A DNA stretch of 64,000 bases from Candidatus Anaerostipes avistercoris (GTDB taxonomy: Bacteria > Bacillota > Clostridia > Lachnospirales > Lachnospiraceae), in contig DWWD01000024.1 in assembly GCA_019119895.1 (NCBI GenBank), positions 1 through 64,000 of the forward strand, in the 5' to 3' direction. The notes under the pieces are model-generated. The model was not told the DNA's origin. It did not search any database and was given only the letters and a program-made list of their open reading frames with translations. Below, one piece after another: positions 54,611 to 63,763 of the stretch (positions are counted from its first letter, which is position 1; the number at the start of each line of letters is the position of its first letter). A program made the translations under genes and the position numbers.

Positions 54611-54638
54611 AAAACCGCATTTCATATGAAACGCGGTA
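54611..54638 (-). terminator. Leftward terminator just outside the left inverted repeat
   Basis: Minus strand reads ACCGCGTTTCATATGAAATGCGGTTTTTTG: near-perfect palindrome plus T6. Confidence 0.7.
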
Positions 54639-54649
54639 AATCTCCGATC

Positions 54650-54670
54650 ATTCTTAAAGTAGTACACTAT
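54650..54670 (+). repeat. Left inverted repeat ATTCTTAAAGTAGTACACTAT
   Basis: Exact reverse complement of 56209-56229. Confidence 0.95.
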
Positions 54671-54672
54671 AC

Positions 54673-54720
54673 GAAAAAATCCCCTGACATCATTGTTTTC
54701 ATCTGACATCAGGGGATTTT
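54673..54720 (-). terminator. Terminator of the recombinase gene at the left end of the invertible element
   Basis: AATCCCCTGA...TCAGGGGATT; T6 on the minus strand. Confidence 0.8.
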
Positions 54721-54847
54721 CCCTTCATTTTAAATTACGAGCAATCTCTGTAATTTCAGCACGATTTAATTTTTCACAAACAAAATAAAAAGAAATGCTA
54801 TATTATATGAAGGGAAAAAACAGGCCATAGCATAAACTGCTATGACC

Positions 54848-56005
54848 CTAATTCTGACCCCAAACAGAAATCTCTTCCAGTCGGTCCATTTGCTGTTTTT
54901 TAGCTTCAATTGATGGATGCACATATCTCTGCAGTGTCGTATTTATATTTGCATGACCCAGTATTTCACTTAAGGATTTAATATCGAATCCGCTTTCCAC
55001 ACACCGGGTAGCAAATGTATGACGCAGACTATGAAATGTAAAAGAATGGAGCCCTGCCTGATTTAAAATATGCTTATACTTATCCAGACATACTCTTGGC
55101 TCTAAGTAGGATTTATTTCCTGTAATAAGATAAGTTTCATCAGATTTCTGATGCTTTATTAATAGTTCTGTAAGAAATGATGACAGCGGGATCAGACGAT
55201 TGGAACTTTCTGTTTTGGGCTGTCCGATCATAATTTTTGTTCTCTCCTGAGAATCTGAAGTAACGTTCTGAATTCGTATTAATGTTTTATTGATCCGGAT
55301 GGTTCCACTTTCCGGATTAAAATCTTTCCATTTCAACGCACACAATTCTCCAATCCGAAGTCCGCCGTACAAAACAAGCAGTATTCCAAGTCCCAGAGGT
55401 GAGGGATTTTGAAACAGGAACTGTTCCAGCTTCGCCTGTTCTTCTCTCGTCAGTACCTTAGCTGCAGAACGCCTAATTTTAGGATAATAGATATCCTGCT
55501 CTATCTGACAAGCGTAATGTTTCTTTCTTGCAAACTTCAATGCCAGAACCAATACCGAACGAATATCCGCCACAGTTTTTGGGGATAACCCTCCTTTTCT
55601 ATCAATTCTTCCTGAAATCAATTTTTCTTTCAGAAAATCATCTATCGTTTCTGTCTGCAGATTTTGCAGACAGGTCTCCCCTAATGCAGGTAAAATATGT
55701 TTTTCTAGAATATTTTTATAATGTGCAAAAGTAGATTCTTTCACCTCGTTCCGTCTTGATTCCATCCACTCTTCCATTAACTGTTTCAATGTGATTTTAA
55801 ATTCAGCTTGATTTCTTCCATTTGATACATGATCAGGGTTAAGATGATTCTGTATAAATTCATTCTTCTTTTTCTTTGCTTCCAGATAGGTTCTGCCATA
55901 AAAAGAACGATATTTTGCTTTCCCTGATAAATCATGTGTATAAATTACCCTTGCCTCCCAGCGTCCGTCTTTTCGCTTCCTTATATTTTCACCACGTCTT
56001 CCCAT
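54848..56005 (-). CDS. Tyrosine recombinase/site-specific integrase
   Basis: Catalytic motifs [13 protein letters not shown] (R), [15 protein letters not shown] (HxxR), [16 protein letters not shown] (H/Y); start [19 protein letters not shown] with upstream aaaggga RBS. Confidence 0.93.
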
Positions 56006-56136
56006 AACACTTATTCCCTTTCCGTTAAGAAACTTTTTCGATGTGGCGTATATGCAGTGACCAGTTTTTTGACCCCGAATCAATAAAAATCTTTGAAATT
56101 GTCCCTGTTTCATGTCTTATGCAGACTATTTATTAG

Positions 56137-56164
56137 TTGACAACCTTTTCATCTGTGATATAAT
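56137..56164 (+). promoter_or_regulatory. Strong outward promoter TTGACA-16-TATAAT with extended -10 (TGATATAAT)
   Basis: Both hexamers match consensus exactly; lies inside the element, 45 bp from the right repeat, directed to the EPS operon. Confidence 0.85.
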
Positions 56165-56208
56165 GATAGGGAATTAATGGCATGTGAGTGCATAATTTAG
56201 CCACTCGC

Positions 56209-56229
56209 ATAGTGTACTACTTTAAGAAT
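56209..56229 (-). repeat. Right inverted repeat ATAGTGTACTACTTTAAGAAT
   Basis: Exact reverse complement of 54650-54670. Confidence 0.95.
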
Positions 56230-56281: not shown

Positions 56282-56698
56282 TTGAAGAAAGCGTATCAAT
56301 CTCCGGAAATCCATCGAGTTGAATTGACGCCAATGCCGGACATTGATCTGGCAAATGCCTCAGATGAGGAACTGTCGGCCGCAATGAAAGCAGGCTTGTA
56401 TTTTGAAAATAAAGTTTGTTATCAGCAAAATCGGGAATTTAAGATTTGCGAATTACTGGGCAGAACTGTTCTGATGCCGGTAAAGCGTGATGCAGAGCAG
56501 ATCAGCAGGATAACAGCTATTGGCGCAGAAGAAAAATTTCTATGGGGTAAGTTATCGAAACGAAGAACTAAGGCAGATCTGGTTGATCTTCTCGCAGCAG
56601 AACAGGGAAGAGAGGGCCGGGCAGTGGAAGCCGATGTCAATAAATTTATTAAAAAAGCGATAGAGGAAAATCTTATTATCCGCTGTGACATGAAATAG
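56282..56698 (+). CDS. PqqD-like (RiPP recognition element-like) protein with N-terminal extension, TTG start
   Basis: gggaggag RBS; C-terminal EKFLWGKLSKRRTKADLVDLLAAEQGREGRAVEADVNKFIKKAIEENLI, PqqD-like. Confidence 0.7.
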   Translation: MKKAYQSPEIHRVELTPMPDIDLANASDEELSAAMKAGLYFENKVCYQQNREFKICELLGRTVLMPVKRDAEQISRITAIGAEEKFLWGKLSKRRTKADLVDLLAAEQGREGRAVEADVNKFIKKAIEENLIIRCDMK

Positions 56699-56724
56699 GT
56701 ATCAGATTCGCATAGGGGGTAAAA

Positions 56725-57075
56725 ATGCAGAAATATATAAAACCTGAATTTTATATTACAGAATTTGAAACAGACGACACCGGTAAGACGAACAGCTGTC
56801 AGTATGTTGACGCAATCAGACGCAGTGCAGCAGGGGAGACTGTGTTGATTCCTGCAGATAAGCAGAAAAAGCATCGCAATGGCATAGTCACCTTCAGCAA
56901 AACAGGAGAGTTTCTGTGGGAACAACTGTCACGGAGACAGACAGAAAGAAGTTTAGTGCATCTTCTGGCGGCGGAATGTGGAAAAGATGAGAAGGAAATC
57001 AAAGCCGATGTGGATGAATTTATAGAAAAAGCAGTCGAAGAAAATCTCATCACTTATTGTGATGCAGAACTGTGA
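56725..57075 (+). CDS. PqqD-like (RiPP recognition element-like) protein, second copy
   Basis: FSKTGEFLWEQLSRRQTERSLVHLLAAECGKDEKEIKADVDEFIEKAVEENLITYC. Confidence 0.75.
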   Translation: MQKYIKPEFYITEFETDDTGKTNSCQYVDAIRRSAAGETVLIPADKQKKHRNGIVTFSKTGEFLWEQLSRRQTERSLVHLLAAECGKDEKEIKADVDEFIEKAVEENLITYCDAEL

Positions 57076-57424: not shown

Positions 57425-58159
57425 ATGGAAATGTATGGGAATCATGCGCTGGAAGAGGAGCAAATGAATATGTCCGAGTATGTCGGTTCGCTGAACAAAC
57501 CACTTTCCAGAAAAGTCATCATTTTAAACAGAGAAGCGCAGCTAAGGTCGAAAAAAGGCTACTGTCTGCTTCGCCGGATGCAGGATATCATTCTATCAAT
57601 ATTTGCGCTGGTTGTCTTATCGCCTTTTCTGCTGCTGACCGCATTGATCATATGGCTGGACGATCCGAAGGGAAGTCCAATCTTTGTTCAGGACAGAGTC
57701 GGCAGGGATGGAAAGATTTTTCGGTTTTATAAATTCCGATCCATGTATGTGGATGCAGAAGAAAAACTGGAAAGTCTGCTGAAAGACAATGAGATGGACG
57801 GACCGGCATTCAAAATGAAAAATGATCCAAGGATCACAAGAGTAGGGAAAATAATCCGGAAGCGCGGCATTGATGAACTGCCGCAGCTGATCAACATCCT
57901 GAAAGGGGATATGAGCATTGTCGGACCGAGACCGGCGCTGCCGAGAGAGGTGGAGCAGTATGGTACATATGAAAGACAGCGGCTGTTTGTCCAGCCGGGA
58001 CTTACCTGTTACTGGCAGGTTCAGCCCCACAGGAATGAAATCAGTTTTGATGAGTGGATGGATTTGGATATGAAATACATACAAGAGCGAAGCTTTTGGA
58101 CAGACTGGAAGATTATCTTCAAAACTGTGGAAACAGTATTGGGGAAATATGGGGAGTAA
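57425..58159 (+). CDS. Exopolysaccharide-initiating sugar transferase (undecaprenyl-phosphate glycosylphosphotransferase)
   Basis: RRMQDIILSIFALVVLSPFLLLTALIIWLDDPKGSPIFVQDRVGRDGKIFRFYKFRSM; DELPQLINILKGDMSIVGPRPALP. Confidence 0.94.
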   Translation: MEMYGNHALEEEQMNMSEYVGSLNKPLSRKVIILNREAQLRSKKGYCLLRRMQDIILSIFALVVLSPFLLLTALIIWLDDPKGSPIFVQDRVGRDGKIFRFYKFRSMYVDAEEKLESLLKDNEMDGPAFKMKNDPRITRVGKIIRKRGIDELPQLINILKGDMSIVGPRPALPREVEQYGTYERQRLFVQPGLTCYWQVQPHRNEISFDEWMDLDMKYIQERSFWTDWKIIFKTVETVLGKYGE

Positions 58160-58183: not shown

Positions 58184-59251
58184 ATGAGTTATACGGACTT
58201 AAATGGAAAGAGAATATTGATAACAGGAGCCGCTGGATTTATAGGATCTAATCTGGCAAAACGTCTTTGCAGGGAGTTAGAAGATGTGACTGTTATCGGA
58301 CTCGATAGTATGAATGATTATTATGACGTAAAACTGAAGGATGCAAGATTGAAAGAGTTATCTGAGTATCCTTCCTTTGTTTTTGTGCAGGGAAATATTG
58401 CAGATAAATCTTTGGTAACAGAGATTTTTGATACATATACACCGCAGATTGTTGTAAATCTTGCGGCGCAGGCAGGAGTTCGGTATTCCATTACGAATCC
58501 AGATGCCTATATCGAATCGAACCTGATTGGCTTTTACAATATTCTGGAAGCCTGTCGGCATTCTTATGATAACAATCGAACAGGTGTAGAGCATCTTGTT
58601 TATGCATCCAGTTCTTCTGTTTATGGATCAAATAAGAAAGTGCCGTACAGCACGGAAGATAAAGTGGATCAGCCGGTCAGTCTGTATGCGGCTACAAAGA
58701 AAAGCAATGAATTATTAGCTCATGCATATTCAAAGCTTTATAATATCCCATCCACAGGGCTTCGGTTCTTTACGGTATATGGTCCGGCAGGGCGTCCGGA
58801 TATGGCATACTTTGGATTTACTGATAAGCTTTGCAAAGGTGAAATGATCCAGATATATAACTATGGAAATTGTAAACGAGACTTTACTTACATCGATGAT
58901 ATTGTGACAGGAGTAGAGAAGGTCATGGAGAAAGCGCCGGACAAGATGATCGGCGAAGATGGATTACCAGAACCGCCATATGCGCTCTATAACATCGGAA
59001 ATAACAGTCCGGAAAATCTTCTGGATTTTGTACAGATATTGAGTGAAGAATTGGTGAGAGCCGGGGTTCTTCCGAAAGACTATGATTTTGAGAAACACAA
59101 AGAATTAGTTCCTATGCAGCCTGGAGATGTACCTGTGACCTATGCGGATACGAGCGCATTAGAACGAGACTTTAGCTTTAAGCCGAATACAAGTCTTCGA
59201 GAAGGGCTGAGACAATTTGCTAAATGGTACAAAGAGTTTTATATGAGCTGA
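58184..59251 (+). CDS. NAD-dependent epimerase, UDP-glucuronate 4-epimerase-like
   Basis: RILITGAAGFIGSNLAKRL; YASSSSVYGSNKKVPYSTEDKVDQPVSLYAATKKSNELLAHAYS. Confidence 0.92.
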   Translation: MSYTDLNGKRILITGAAGFIGSNLAKRLCRELEDVTVIGLDSMNDYYDVKLKDARLKELSEYPSFVFVQGNIADKSLVTEIFDTYTPQIVVNLAAQAGVRYSITNPDAYIESNLIGFYNILEACRHSYDNNRTGVEHLVYASSSSVYGSNKKVPYSTEDKVDQPVSLYAATKKSNELLAHAYSKLYNIPSTGLRFFTVYGPAGRPDMAYFGFTDKLCKGEMIQIYNYGNCKRDFTYIDDIVTGVEKVMEKAPDKMIGEDGLPEPPYALYNIGNNSPENLLDFVQILSEELVRAGVLPKDYDFEKHKELVPMQPGDVPVTYADTSALERDFSFKPNTSLREGLRQFAKWYKEFYMS

Positions 59252-59310: not shown

Positions 59311-60561
59311 ATGAAAGATTTTAATGATTTGAAGATTGCAGTTGCCGGCACTGGCTATGTTGGGCTTTCAATTGCCACATTACTGGCACAACATCATAAA
59401 GTAACGGCGGTTGATATTGTCCCTGAAAAGGTAGATATGGTCAATGATAGAAAATCACCGATTCAAGATGATTACATTGAAAAATATCTGGCTGAGAAAA
59501 AATTGAGTTTGACAGCTACGCTGGATGCAAAGGAAGCATATAGTGATGCAGACTTTGTTGTGATTGCAGCGCCGACAAACTATGACAGTAAGAAGAATTT
59601 CTTTGATACCTCTGCGGTTGAGAGTGTAATTGAGTTGGTTATGGAATATGCCCCAGATGCAGTTATGGTCATTAAGTCAACGATTCCAGTTGGTTATACG
59701 AAATTTATTCGGGAAAAGACGGGCAGTCAGAATATCATCTTTAGTCCTGAATTTTTAAGAGAGTCAAAGGCTTTATATGACAATTTGTACCCGTCGCGCA
59801 TTATCGTTGGGACAGACATGAAAGATGAGCACTTGCTTGAAGCTGCACATACTTTTGCAAAATTGCTTCAGGAAGGCGCAATCAAAGAAAATATTGAAAC
59901 TCTGTTTATGGGATTTACAGAAGCTGAGGCTGTGAAATTATTTGCCAATACTTATCTGGCATTAAGAGTTGCGTACTTTAATGAACTGGATACGTATGCT
60001 GAGAGTAAAGGCCTGAATACCAAAGAGATTATTGATGGCGTGTGTCTGGATCCAAGAATTGGTTCACACTATAATAACCCGAGTTTTGGATATGGCGGGT
60101 ATTGTCTGCCGAAAGATACGAAACAGCTATTAGCGAATTATGCTGATGTGCCAGAAAATCTGATTGAAGCTATCGTAGAAAGTAATAGAACAAGAAAAGA
60201 TTTTATTGCAGACCGTGTACTGGAGACAGCTGGTGCTTATAGTGCAAATGACAGCTGGAATGAAAATAAGGAAAAAGAAGTTATGGTGGGTGTTTATCGG
60301 CTGACGATGAAAAGCAACAGTGATAACTTCCGTCAAAGCAGCATCCAGGGTGTCATGAAAAGGATCAAGGCAAAAGGAGCTACAGTCATCATTTACGAAC
60401 CGACTCTGAAAGATGGAGATACTTTCTTTGGAAGTAAAGTAGTAAATGATTTGAACGAGTTTAAGCGGCAAAGTCAGGCGATTATCGCTAATCGATATGA
60501 TAAATGTCTGGATGATGTGAAAGAAAAAGTGTATACGAGAGATATATTTATGAGGGACTAA
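59311..60561 (+). CDS. UDP-glucose 6-dehydrogenase family
   Basis: [66 protein letters not shown]. Confidence 0.93.
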
Positions 60562-60567
60562 AAGAAA

Positions 60568-61038
60568 ATGAGCAAAAAGCAAAGGAAGAAAAAACCTAAA
60601 ATATGTCTTGTTTCCTCTTCGGGAGGACATTGGGAACAACTTCAAAAATTAGAACCACTAATCCGGAAATACGATGGTTTTTTTGTGACAGAAAAAACAA
60701 AGTTTGAGGCAAACGCCAGATATTTGATGATTCAGACAGATTTAAAAGACAAATTCATGTTTCCTAAGATGCTGATAAATGGTCTAAAAGCTTTAAAAAT
60801 TTGGATAAAGGAAAAGCCTGATTTCATTGTAACAACAGGAACTATGGTAGCTTATCCTTTTTATCTGTTAGCTATTATTATGCATAAAAAGTTTATATTT
60901 ATTGAGACATTTGGACGTGCAGATATGCCAACAGTGGCAGGCAAGATGATGGAAAAACATTCCGATCTATTTATTGTTCAGTGGGAGTCACAAGTAAAAC
61001 ATTATAAAAAAGCTATTTACGGAGGGTGTTTGTATTGA
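60568..61038 (+). CDS. PssD/Cps14F-like glycosyltransferase subunit (Alg14-like)
   Basis: KICLVSSSGGHWEQLQKLEPL; IFIETFGRADMPTVAGKMMEKHSDLFIVQWE. Confidence 0.9.
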   Translation: MSKKQRKKKPKICLVSSSGGHWEQLQKLEPLIRKYDGFFVTEKTKFEANARYLMIQTDLKDKFMFPKMLINGLKALKIWIKEKPDFIVTTGTMVAYPFYLLAIIMHKKFIFIETFGRADMPTVAGKMMEKHSDLFIVQWESQVKHYKKAIYGGCLY

Positions 61039-61529
61039 TTTTTGTAACTGTTGGTTCAAGAAATTATCCGTTTGACCGATTATTCAAGAAATTGGATGAA
61101 TTATATGAGGACGGAATCTTGACTGAAAGGATGTTTGCGCAAATAGGAACTTCTACATATAAGCCAAAACATTATGAATTCGAAGACTTTATTTCACCAG
61201 ATGAATTCATGAAGAAAATAAAGGAAGCTGATATAGTTGTGAGTCATGGTGCATCTGGTTCCATTATGAAAGCGTTAAATGAGGATAAAAAAGTGATAGC
61301 AGTAACCAGGCTTGAAAAGTATGGGGAGCATATTAATGATCATCAGATTCAGAACAATGAGGCGTTTAGTAACAATGGATATGTCTTAATGGCAGATTTA
61401 GAACTGGAGAATCTAGGTGAGTGTTTTCAGAAAATATATAGAGGAACGGATAGACTAAAACACTGGGGAAATAGGGATCCTATGGCGATAGTGAATTTAA
61501 TAGATAAATTTATTCAGAAAAATTGGTAG
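61035..61529 (+). CDS. PssE/Cps14G-like glycosyltransferase subunit (Alg13-like)
   Basis: IFVTVGSRNYPFDRLFKKLDEL; ADIVVSHGASGSIMKALNEDKKVIAVTRLEKYGEHINDHQ. Confidence 0.9.
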   Translation: MIFVTVGSRNYPFDRLFKKLDELYEDGILTERMFAQIGTSTYKPKHYEFEDFISPDEFMKKIKEADIVVSHGASGSIMKALNEDKKVIAVTRLEKYGEHINDHQIQNNEAFSNNGYVLMADLELENLGECFQKIYRGTDRLKHWGNRDPMAIVNLIDKFIQKNW

Positions 61530-61552: not shown

Positions 61553-63763
61553 ATGGAATTTGTTGAAATCGAGCAGACTGGAAAACGTATATTTGAACAG
61601 TTTCCTGTTGTTAAAAAGTTAGCTAAAAGAGTATATCAGATTATAAGTGTAGTCACTTCAAAAGAAAAGTTTAAATCTGAAGGCAATATTGTCAGAATAT
61701 CTCCCGATGATGAATATGAATATTTTTATGGATATTATGATAAATCCCCATGGGATAAATCAGATCGTTACATGATTTGTCTAAAGGTCAAACAGACCTA
61801 TAAATCAGTGGCTCCGAAAGAACCAGGGATTGTTGGAGTGATTGACACACAGTCTAATAATAAATTTAAAATGATAGGAACTACGCATTCTTGGAATGTA
61901 CAGCAGGGATGTATGGCGCAATGGATGGGACCAGACTTTGAATCAAAAATAATATATAACGATTTCCGTGAGGGTAATTATTGTTCGGTAATTTATGATT
62001 TTAAAAACAATAAAGAAGAAAAAATACTTCCTATGGCTGTTTATGATGTAGCTAAAGATGGGAGCTTTATATTAAGCCTTGATTTTTCACGGTTGCATAG
62101 AATGCGTCCAGGCTATGGCTATTCAAATCTTCCAGATACTACTAAAGAGGAATTGTGTCCAGAAAAAGGATGTATTTGGAAGGTTAATGTTGAAACCGGA
62201 GAGGTTACTGAGCTATTTAAATATACAGACTTTGCGAACTTTGAACCAAATGAGAGTATGGTAGGTGCAGAACATAAAGTAAATCATCTGATGATAAGTC
62301 CAAATTGTAAAAGAGTTATGATATTACACCGTTGGTTCCAAAAAGGACGTAAGCACACTAGATTAGTAACAGTAAATATTGATAAAACGGAAATGTATAA
62401 CCTTAGCGACAATGTTTTTGTATCCCATTGTTATTGGAAAAATGATGAAGAAATTTTATCTTTTCTTCGGAAGAATGATGCGGGTGATCATTACTACTTG
62501 ATGAAAGATAAAACACAAGAATACAAGATGTATTGGCCGGAACTTAAGACCGATGGTCATTGCAGTTATAGTCCAAATCGGAAATATGTTATTACAGATA
62601 CGTATCCCAATAGGAAAAGGATTGCATCAGTTTATCTATGCACAGAAATATCAAACCAAAGTCAAAGAATTGCTAGGGTGTATTCACCGTTTAAGTATGA
62701 TAATGATTGTAGATGTGACTTGCATCCGAGATGGAATAGAAAAGGGGATAAAGTCTGTATCGATTCCGTTCATAATGGAAAGAGAGGATTGTTTGTAATT
62801 GATTTAACTACATTAATAATGAATAACGAAAAAAAAGAATTAGTAAATGAAAAAATAAAAAAAGTAGCAATTATTCGGTCTAATAAGTTTAAATTAATCG
62901 CAAAAGAAGAAAAAGATATATTTTATGTGGAAGATATGTTTTCAGAACTAAACAAAGTTAATTCTTTAATACGTGATATATGCCTATATGGAAGATTAAG
63001 GATTAGTAGCAATTATTATAATAAGAAATTAGTGAGTTTAGATACAGATACAATTATTATTTTTGACCCTCACGTAAGGATTCAATTTCTAAAATGGCTA
63101 GTAATGAACAATCCTGATAAGAGAATTATACTGTGGTTTTGGAATACGATAAAAGAAATTGGGAAAAACATTCCATTGGATAAAATACCAGAATCAATTG
63201 AATTGTGGTCCTATTCGATATATGACTGTGAAAAATATGGATTAAAATATAATACAACATTTTATCCATATGAAATACGAGTACATCAGGATGTAGAGGA
63301 AAAGTATGATGTTTGCTTTGTAGGGAAGGACAAGGGAAGATTAGAAAAGATATTAGAGATTAAAGAGGCTCTTGAAAAGAGAGGTTTAAAGACATATTTT
63401 CACATTTCACCTACACATCAATATGAATTGAGAAAAAAATCTGTATACAAACCGAAAATTGCTTATAGTGATGTTGATAATATAATTTCAAAAAGCCGTT
63501 GCATTTTAGATTGTGAGGTAGATAGCTTTGCAGGACCGACAATCAGACCTTTGGAGGCTATATACCGTAGGAAAAAATTGATATCAAATAATCAATCATT
63601 AAGAAATGAAGATTATTATAATAGTTCCAATATTTTCATTTATGGAAAAGATGATATTGATAAAATTATAGAATTCATAGAAAAACCGTATGAAGAATAT
63701 GATGAGTCAATATTGAAAAAATATAGTATGAGAGAATGGGTAAAACGTTTTTTTAAGGAATGA
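61553..63763 (+). CDS. Two-domain protein: N-terminal beta-propeller-like (YFYGYYDKSPW) and C-terminal glycosyltransferase-like domain
   Basis: Repeated propeller-type segments to ~residue 420, then CFVGKDKGRLEKILEIKEALEKRGLKTYFHI...AGPTIRPLEAIYRRKKLISNN. Confidence 0.6.
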   Translation: MEFVEIEQTGKRIFEQFPVVKKLAKRVYQIISVVTSKEKFKSEGNIVRISPDDEYEYFYGYYDKSPWDKSDRYMICLKVKQTYKSVAPKEPGIVGVIDTQSNNKFKMIGTTHSWNVQQGCMAQWMGPDFESKIIYNDFREGNYCSVIYDFKNNKEEKILPMAVYDVAKDGSFILSLDFSRLHRMRPGYGYSNLPDTTKEELCPEKGCIWKVNVETGEVTELFKYTDFANFEPNESMVGAEHKVNHLMISPNCKRVMILHRWFQKGRKHTRLVTVNIDKTEMYNLSDNVFVSHCYWKNDEEILSFLRKNDAGDHYYLMKDKTQEYKMYWPELKTDGHCSYSPNRKYVITDTYPNRKRIASVYLCTEISNQSQRIARVYSPFKYDNDCRCDLHPRWNRKGDKVCIDSVHNGKRGLFVIDLTTLIMNNEKKELVNEKIKKVAIIRSNKFKLIAKEEKDIFYVEDMFSELNKVNSLIRDICLYGRLRISSNYYNKKLVSLDTDTIIIFDPHVRIQFLKWLVMNNPDKRIILWFWNTIKEIGKNIPLDKIPESIELWSYSIYDCEKYGLKYNTTFYPYEIRVHQDVEEKYDVCFVGKDKGRLEKILEIKEALEKRGLKTYFHISPTHQYELRKKSVYKPKIAYSDVDNIISKSRCILDCEVDSFAGPTIRPLEAIYRRKKLISNNQSLRNEDYYNSSNIFIYGKDDIDKIIEFIEKPYEEYDESILKKYSMREWVKRFFKE

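Follow-up and report, generated by a model that had tools for sequence, protein, structure and literature searches.

Anatomy of the locus

The segment from 54650 to 56229 of the window, by which we mean the whole 64-kb stretch of DNA analysed here, is bounded by inverted repeats with arms of 21 nt: ATTCTTAAAGTAGTACACTAT at 54650-54670 recurs as its exact reverse complement at 56209-56229, and lengthening the arms to 25 nt gives a complementarity of 96%. When up to three mismatches are allowed, the window contains just these two repeat sites (0 in 100 shuffles), and in a pattern search of the 2.83-Mb genome the sole occurrences of AAAGTAGTACACTAT were the two arms. The perfect 21-bp inverted repeats described in an earlier note on this DNA are therefore exact and unique in the genome. 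A search of the same genome for the alternative junction returned the two repeat copies and no more, and a single orientation is assembled.

Between the repeats, on the minus strand, lies the gene of a tyrosine recombinase. Its longest open reading frame (54848-56113) encodes 421 residues; since close homologues nearly all begin with M-x-R/K plus a conserved stretch, or a close variant of this, the start is most likely M37 of that frame, at 56005 rather than 56113, which gives a protein of 385 residues (54848-56005). Pfam searches assign to it a SAM-like core-binding domain and a phage-integrase catalytic domain (PF14659 and PF00589), and its nearest solved chain by sequence is the integrase of Tn1549 (6en0, E 1.3e-15). 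In an alignment of 18 recombinases, R217, K264, H325, R328, H351 and Y361 are invariant, so that the R-K-H-R-H-Y set is complete. With an open frame, its catalytic residues present and the gene placed between the repeats, the recombinase is intact and inside the segment, as the earlier note had it. The best consensus promoter facing the gene, directed inward, is weak (8/12).

The best promoter match of the region (TTGACA-16-TATAAT with a TG-extended -10 element, 12/12 to the sigma-70 consensus) is found at 56137-56164 on the plus strand, between the recombinase start and the right repeat. It lies 45 nt inside this repeat, is directed rightward across the right site toward the neighbouring operon, and its position is conserved in homologues; the promoter is predicted from its match to the consensus. 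About 120 nt beyond it begins the first gene of the operon, which has a good ribosome-binding site and a TTG start behind GGGAGGAG. At the other end, a terminator-like hairpin overlies the end of the recombinase gene (54822-54848, minus strand, -17.0 kcal/mol, z -4.9), a strong hairpin with a U-tract is located just inside the left end of the segment (54676-54720, -29.4 kcal/mol, z -6.3 for the minus strand), and a terminator is predicted just beyond the left site (54614-54637, minus strand). The description of the segment as holding little else besides the recombinase thus has to be corrected by a 12/12 promoter and two strong hairpins or terminators. Rfam searches near the switch gave no match above the gathering score. 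As in invertons, inverted repeats bound a short segment (1.58 kb), and a promoter inside it, recognised by consensus alone, reads over one repeat into a gene.

Pfam and homology assignments of the downstream genes, all on the plus strand, agree with the proposal that the switch adjoins an exopolysaccharide operon. The first two genes encode PqqD-like small proteins (56282-56698, PF05402; 56725-57075, PF05402, 2.2e-13), which thus stand at the head of the operon (56282-57075); at a homologous locus, L086, the target of the switch is a PqqD-like gene plus a radical-SAM gene. There follow an exopolysaccharide polyprenyl glycosylphosphotransferase (57425-58159, PF02397), an NAD-dependent sugar-nucleotide epimerase/dehydratase (58184-59251), a UDP-glucose 6-dehydrogenase (59311-60561), a PssD/PssE-type glycosyltransferase pair in two open reading frames (60568-61529, the second assigned by position only) and a 736-residue protein with a WaaS/CpsH glycosyltransferase domain (61553-63763).

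Homologous cassettes and past inversions

Homologues of the recombinase at E <= 1e-60 occur in 81 of 397 genomes of the same family, about a fifth. We retrieved 78 loci, nearly all from this family, with a few others from its order. The recombinase lies between inverted repeats (score at least 16) in 46 of them, whereas the control with direct repeats gave 0/78 and a mismatched null 0/400. The median distance is 217 nt from the upstream arm to the start of the gene and 51 nt from its stop to the downstream arm, and the median length of the segment is 1455 bp. An outward promoter of at least 11/12 between repeat and gene is found in 27 of the 46, compared to an inward one in a single case and to about 1% in shuffles. 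Homologous recombinases also occur in many further families of the class: in a separate class-wide sample, inverted repeats flank the recombinase in 19/25 cases, as opposed to 0/18 for distant integrases, and the excess of outward promoters is weaker (8/19 vs 2 inward). Of the 32 homologues that failed the criterion of flanking repeats, four (L034, L035, L094, L114) proved to be flanked upon closer inspection and three (L041, L088, L106) lie next to a distinct short switch whose motif is similar; in a tree of 75 recombinases, those with and those without flanking repeats form clusters, but are also intermingled. Four contigs classed as viral in IMG/VR (L173, L177, L180, L183) carry homologous recombinases with flanking repeats of their own, and the cassette may therefore also ride on phages or prophages.

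Aligned by their dyads, the sites of 49 loci yield the consensus TTTCGtAGAgT-atnnn-AcTCTacGAaa. The two copies of one locus show no mismatch over the nine central columns and up to 26 in the outer ones, a result that the way in which the repeats were found partly favours for the centre; this does not apply to the variability between loci, where conservation is lowest at the centre. Strand exchange by tyrosine recombinases leaves the core sequence free, but the two partners must be identical, and a centre that is identical within a locus and variable between loci is what such an exchange demands. In the window, repeat search and alignment define a left site, ATTCTTAAAGT-AGTAC-ACTATACGAAA, at 54650-54676 on the plus strand with its central crossover region at 54661-54665, and a right site, ATTCTTAAAGT-AGTAC-ACTATGCGAGT as read on the minus strand, at 56203-56229 with its centre at 56214-56218. 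The earlier note was right to place a crossover core within the repeat, but its TAGT-GT-ACTA is slightly off, as the alignment centres on AGTAC.

Two pairs of homologous loci record inversions that have taken place. L034 (C47) is a second such switch in the genome of the window, with a recombinase 55% identical to that of the first and a core of ATTAC in place of AGTAC, and adjoins another exopolysaccharide operon. Compared with L035 from a congeneric species, it has the segment reversed between collinear flanks of 87% and 80% identity. L136 and L141 are duplicate loci of one genome, whose segments are 95% identical and whose flanks are exchanged. In both pairs, single-base differences follow the flank if they are in the outer half-site and the segment if they are in the inner one, so that the crossover falls within the central ~9-11 nt; the comparison of L034 and L035 narrows it to AGTATTACACT. 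Further, homologous targets lie on opposite sides of the recombinase in five pairs (L040/L134, L103/L111, L124/L132, L134/L140, L134/L142), and the epimerase and UDP-glucose dehydrogenase genes of the window have their counterparts on the other side of the recombinase in L037. The expected occurrence of the opposite orientation in related genomes thus holds for homologous pairs; for the window locus itself, no orthologous locus turned up in other species when relatives of its first target gene were sought, and a scan of genome contigs returned a single distant relative, hence no second strain of the species.

The ON-oriented switch of L035 carries a later insertion (L035:4187-4858), which on reading resembles an IS200/605 tnpA element. 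It lies between the 3' end of the recombinase gene and the repeat and seems to replace the last codons, and this switch may now be locked. By crude ORF calling, which provides no measure of rate, 22 loci are in the OFF state and 6 in the ON state, 15 have outward genes on two sides, 5 have neither and 2 were left unassigned.

Interpretation and alternatives

Relatives that are oriented either way and whose breakpoints fall within the repeats, a clade that is typically flanked and an outward promoter placed as expected all argue for the self-contained invertible switch that the earlier note had proposed. Judging from these relatives, inversion is close to certain as the mechanism, and we hold with high confidence that 54650-56229 is a self-contained invertible promoter cassette with the recombinase inside, which as assembled would have the PqqD/exopolysaccharide operon ON and when flipped OFF. 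The encoded recombinase would bind the two inverted sites of ~27 bp, exchange strands within their central ~5-9 bp, around the AGTAC core, and thereby turn the 1.58-kb segment around. By design, the assembled orientation appears to be the ON state, in which the promoter at 56137-56164 would read over the right site and drive the operon. In the OFF state it would be aimed to the left, where the terminator at 54614-54637 would catch its transcript. The recombinase gene would then run in the same direction as the operon, from which its own terminators would shield it, and the hairpin at 54676-54720 would insulate the operon from recombinase transcripts. The recombinase gene takes its upstream region along when the segment turns, so that expression would be possible in either state and the switching reversible.

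The anatomy of the locus, the consensus of its promoter, the conservation across the family and past inversion with a mapped crossover in two homologous pairs support this account directly. We infer from them that the copy in the window is active, that its two orientations differ in expression and that the exopolysaccharide is phase-variable.

With a length of 1.6 kb, terminal inverted repeats and one gene, the segment resembles an insertion sequence or transposon that moved as a unit, and its closest solved structure by sequence, a transposon integrase, would suit such an origin. The repeats, however, have no second copy elsewhere in the genome, loci shared between relatives show the segment inverted rather than absent, and the repeat centre is locus-specific yet identical in both copies, so that we regard this explanation as very unlikely. 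An insertion sequence in particular was rejected by a search for target-site duplications: one of 5 nt is seen in 3 of 49 loci, against 5.7% by chance in shifted controls. An even more improbable reading, to which we give almost no credence, takes the recombinase for the integrase of a prophage or conjugative element that came to lie between repeats by chance, the resemblance to a switch being coincidental. Its domain architecture is that of phage and Tn916-type integrases and some homologues are found on viral contigs, but several of the latter have their own flanking inverted repeats, the neighbouring genes lack phage or conjugation functions, and site, motif, promoter and gene spacing are conserved across dozens of loci.

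A third possibility accepts the switch but regards it as decayed, formerly invertible and now fixed ON in this lineage. The single assembled orientation would fit, as would the weak inward promoter, given that recombinase levels may be low; against this, the recombinase frame is open with all catalytic residues kept, and the 21-nt repeats are perfect with an identical centre. We consider a locked switch improbable, if somewhat less so than a transposon, and a self-contained invertible cassette remains our preferred reading.

Known systems and the targets of the family

Bacteroides, E. coli and C. difficile provide the best-described examples of invertible-promoter phase variation. In the fimS switch, acted on by FimB and FimE, and in the flagellar and cwpV switches of C. 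difficile, acted on by RecV, a promoter or regulatory segment between short inverted repeats is flipped by tyrosine chemistry as in our cassette. The recombinase genes of these systems lie outside the segment, at times far from it, and their enzymes have ~200 residues. In contrast, the 385-residue enzyme of the cassette is encoded within the segment (54848-56005) and the site sequence is private to each locus. The original PhaseFinder survey and the intragenic-inverton survey reportedly limit the distance between repeats. The Tn1549 and Tn916 integrases are the closest solved relatives by sequence, but they integrate and excise conjugative transposons, whereas the cassette has inverted repeats and no adjacent transfer or excision genes. 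In layout, it is closest to the H segment of Salmonella flagellar phase variation, where the gene of Hin, a serine recombinase (PMC11868660), lies within the invertible segment (PMC5903667). Both have the recombinase inside, a promoter near one end reading over the repeat and, in the cassette by prediction, an orientation that sets ON or OFF; the enzyme of the cassette differs in being a tyrosine recombinase (PF00589) with an integrase-like N-terminal region and other sites, in place of a serine recombinase domain. The cassette is thus a combination of the Hin layout, the Fim/RecV chemistry and a transposon-integrase protein.

A 2025 survey of gut invertons describes inverton group 139 with invertase group 35 in gut Clostridia, where a tyrosine recombinase is close by; the published example has an interior of 206 bp and hence the recombinase outside (PMC11892184). 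The same layout is seen in L041, L088 and L106, and group 139 probably shares recombinase and site family with our cassettes in a recombinase-adjacent form. The sections of the survey covered here contain no description of recombinase-inside cassettes (PMC11892184), nor did we find one for this family in the open-licence literature.

Exopolysaccharide glycosylphosphotransferases form the largest family (10) among 115 target-side genes, a set in which two-sided loci are counted with both outward sides; none is among the 25 first-listed families of 51 non-target-side genes of ON/OFF loci. Further targets are Tad-pilus genes, surface repeat proteins and sugar-nucleotide enzymes.

Six loci have as first target gene a TnpB/Cas12f-like protein of ~450 residues (L040:6576-7925, L134:2855-4195, L142:5818-7167, L125:5882-7198, L120:3054-4379, L140:5734-7104), located 40-165 nt outside the repeat and ahead of CDP-sugar or teichoic-type genes. 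Inspection of the alignment by eye shows that the zinc ribbon is kept and all three RuvC positions are replaced (G-x-S/A-x-G for GxDxG, A/V/P for the glutamate, K for the last aspartate), and the protein looks like a nuclease-dead TnpB relative under an invertible promoter. In the 250-500 nt after this gene there is a conserved non-coding stretch (L142:7170-7430 and the equivalent gaps in L140, L134, L040, L125 and L120), with compensatory changes in 10 of 22 predicted pairs among five sequences; Rfam gave no match for the stretch of L142. It is possibly a guide-RNA-like partner. In five other loci (L136, L141, L096, L112, L139) the target encodes a DEAD/ResIII helicase of ~760 residues with repeated helicase-associated domains, annotated in L141 and assigned by homology in the others; in L141, it is followed by the gene of a PseC-like sugar aminotransferase. 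Two sugar-transferase genes on opposite sides of L044:4656-6347 have inverted repeats of 166 nt at their starts, and inversion might here choose between two polysaccharide operons.

Taken over the class, we lean slightly towards the view that these loci form a large family of autonomous switch cassettes, each with its own recombinase, its own sites with a locus-specific core and an outward promoter, repeatedly placed before surface polysaccharide, Tad-pilus, surface-protein and regulator genes. Private cores may insulate recombinase-site pairs from each other, in which case a cell could flip each of several switches separately, and surveys limited in repeat distance may have missed the recombinase-inside form. 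Pairs of recombinase and site with natural locus-specific cores could become independent genetic switches. For the bacterium studied here, the locus suggests that it probably switches its neighbouring surface-sugar operon on and off. Being compact, self-contained and recognisable from sequence alone, the cassette points to the surface operons that are predicted to be bistable in these bacteria, and makes surface-sugar variation in Gram-positive gut bacteria directly testable.
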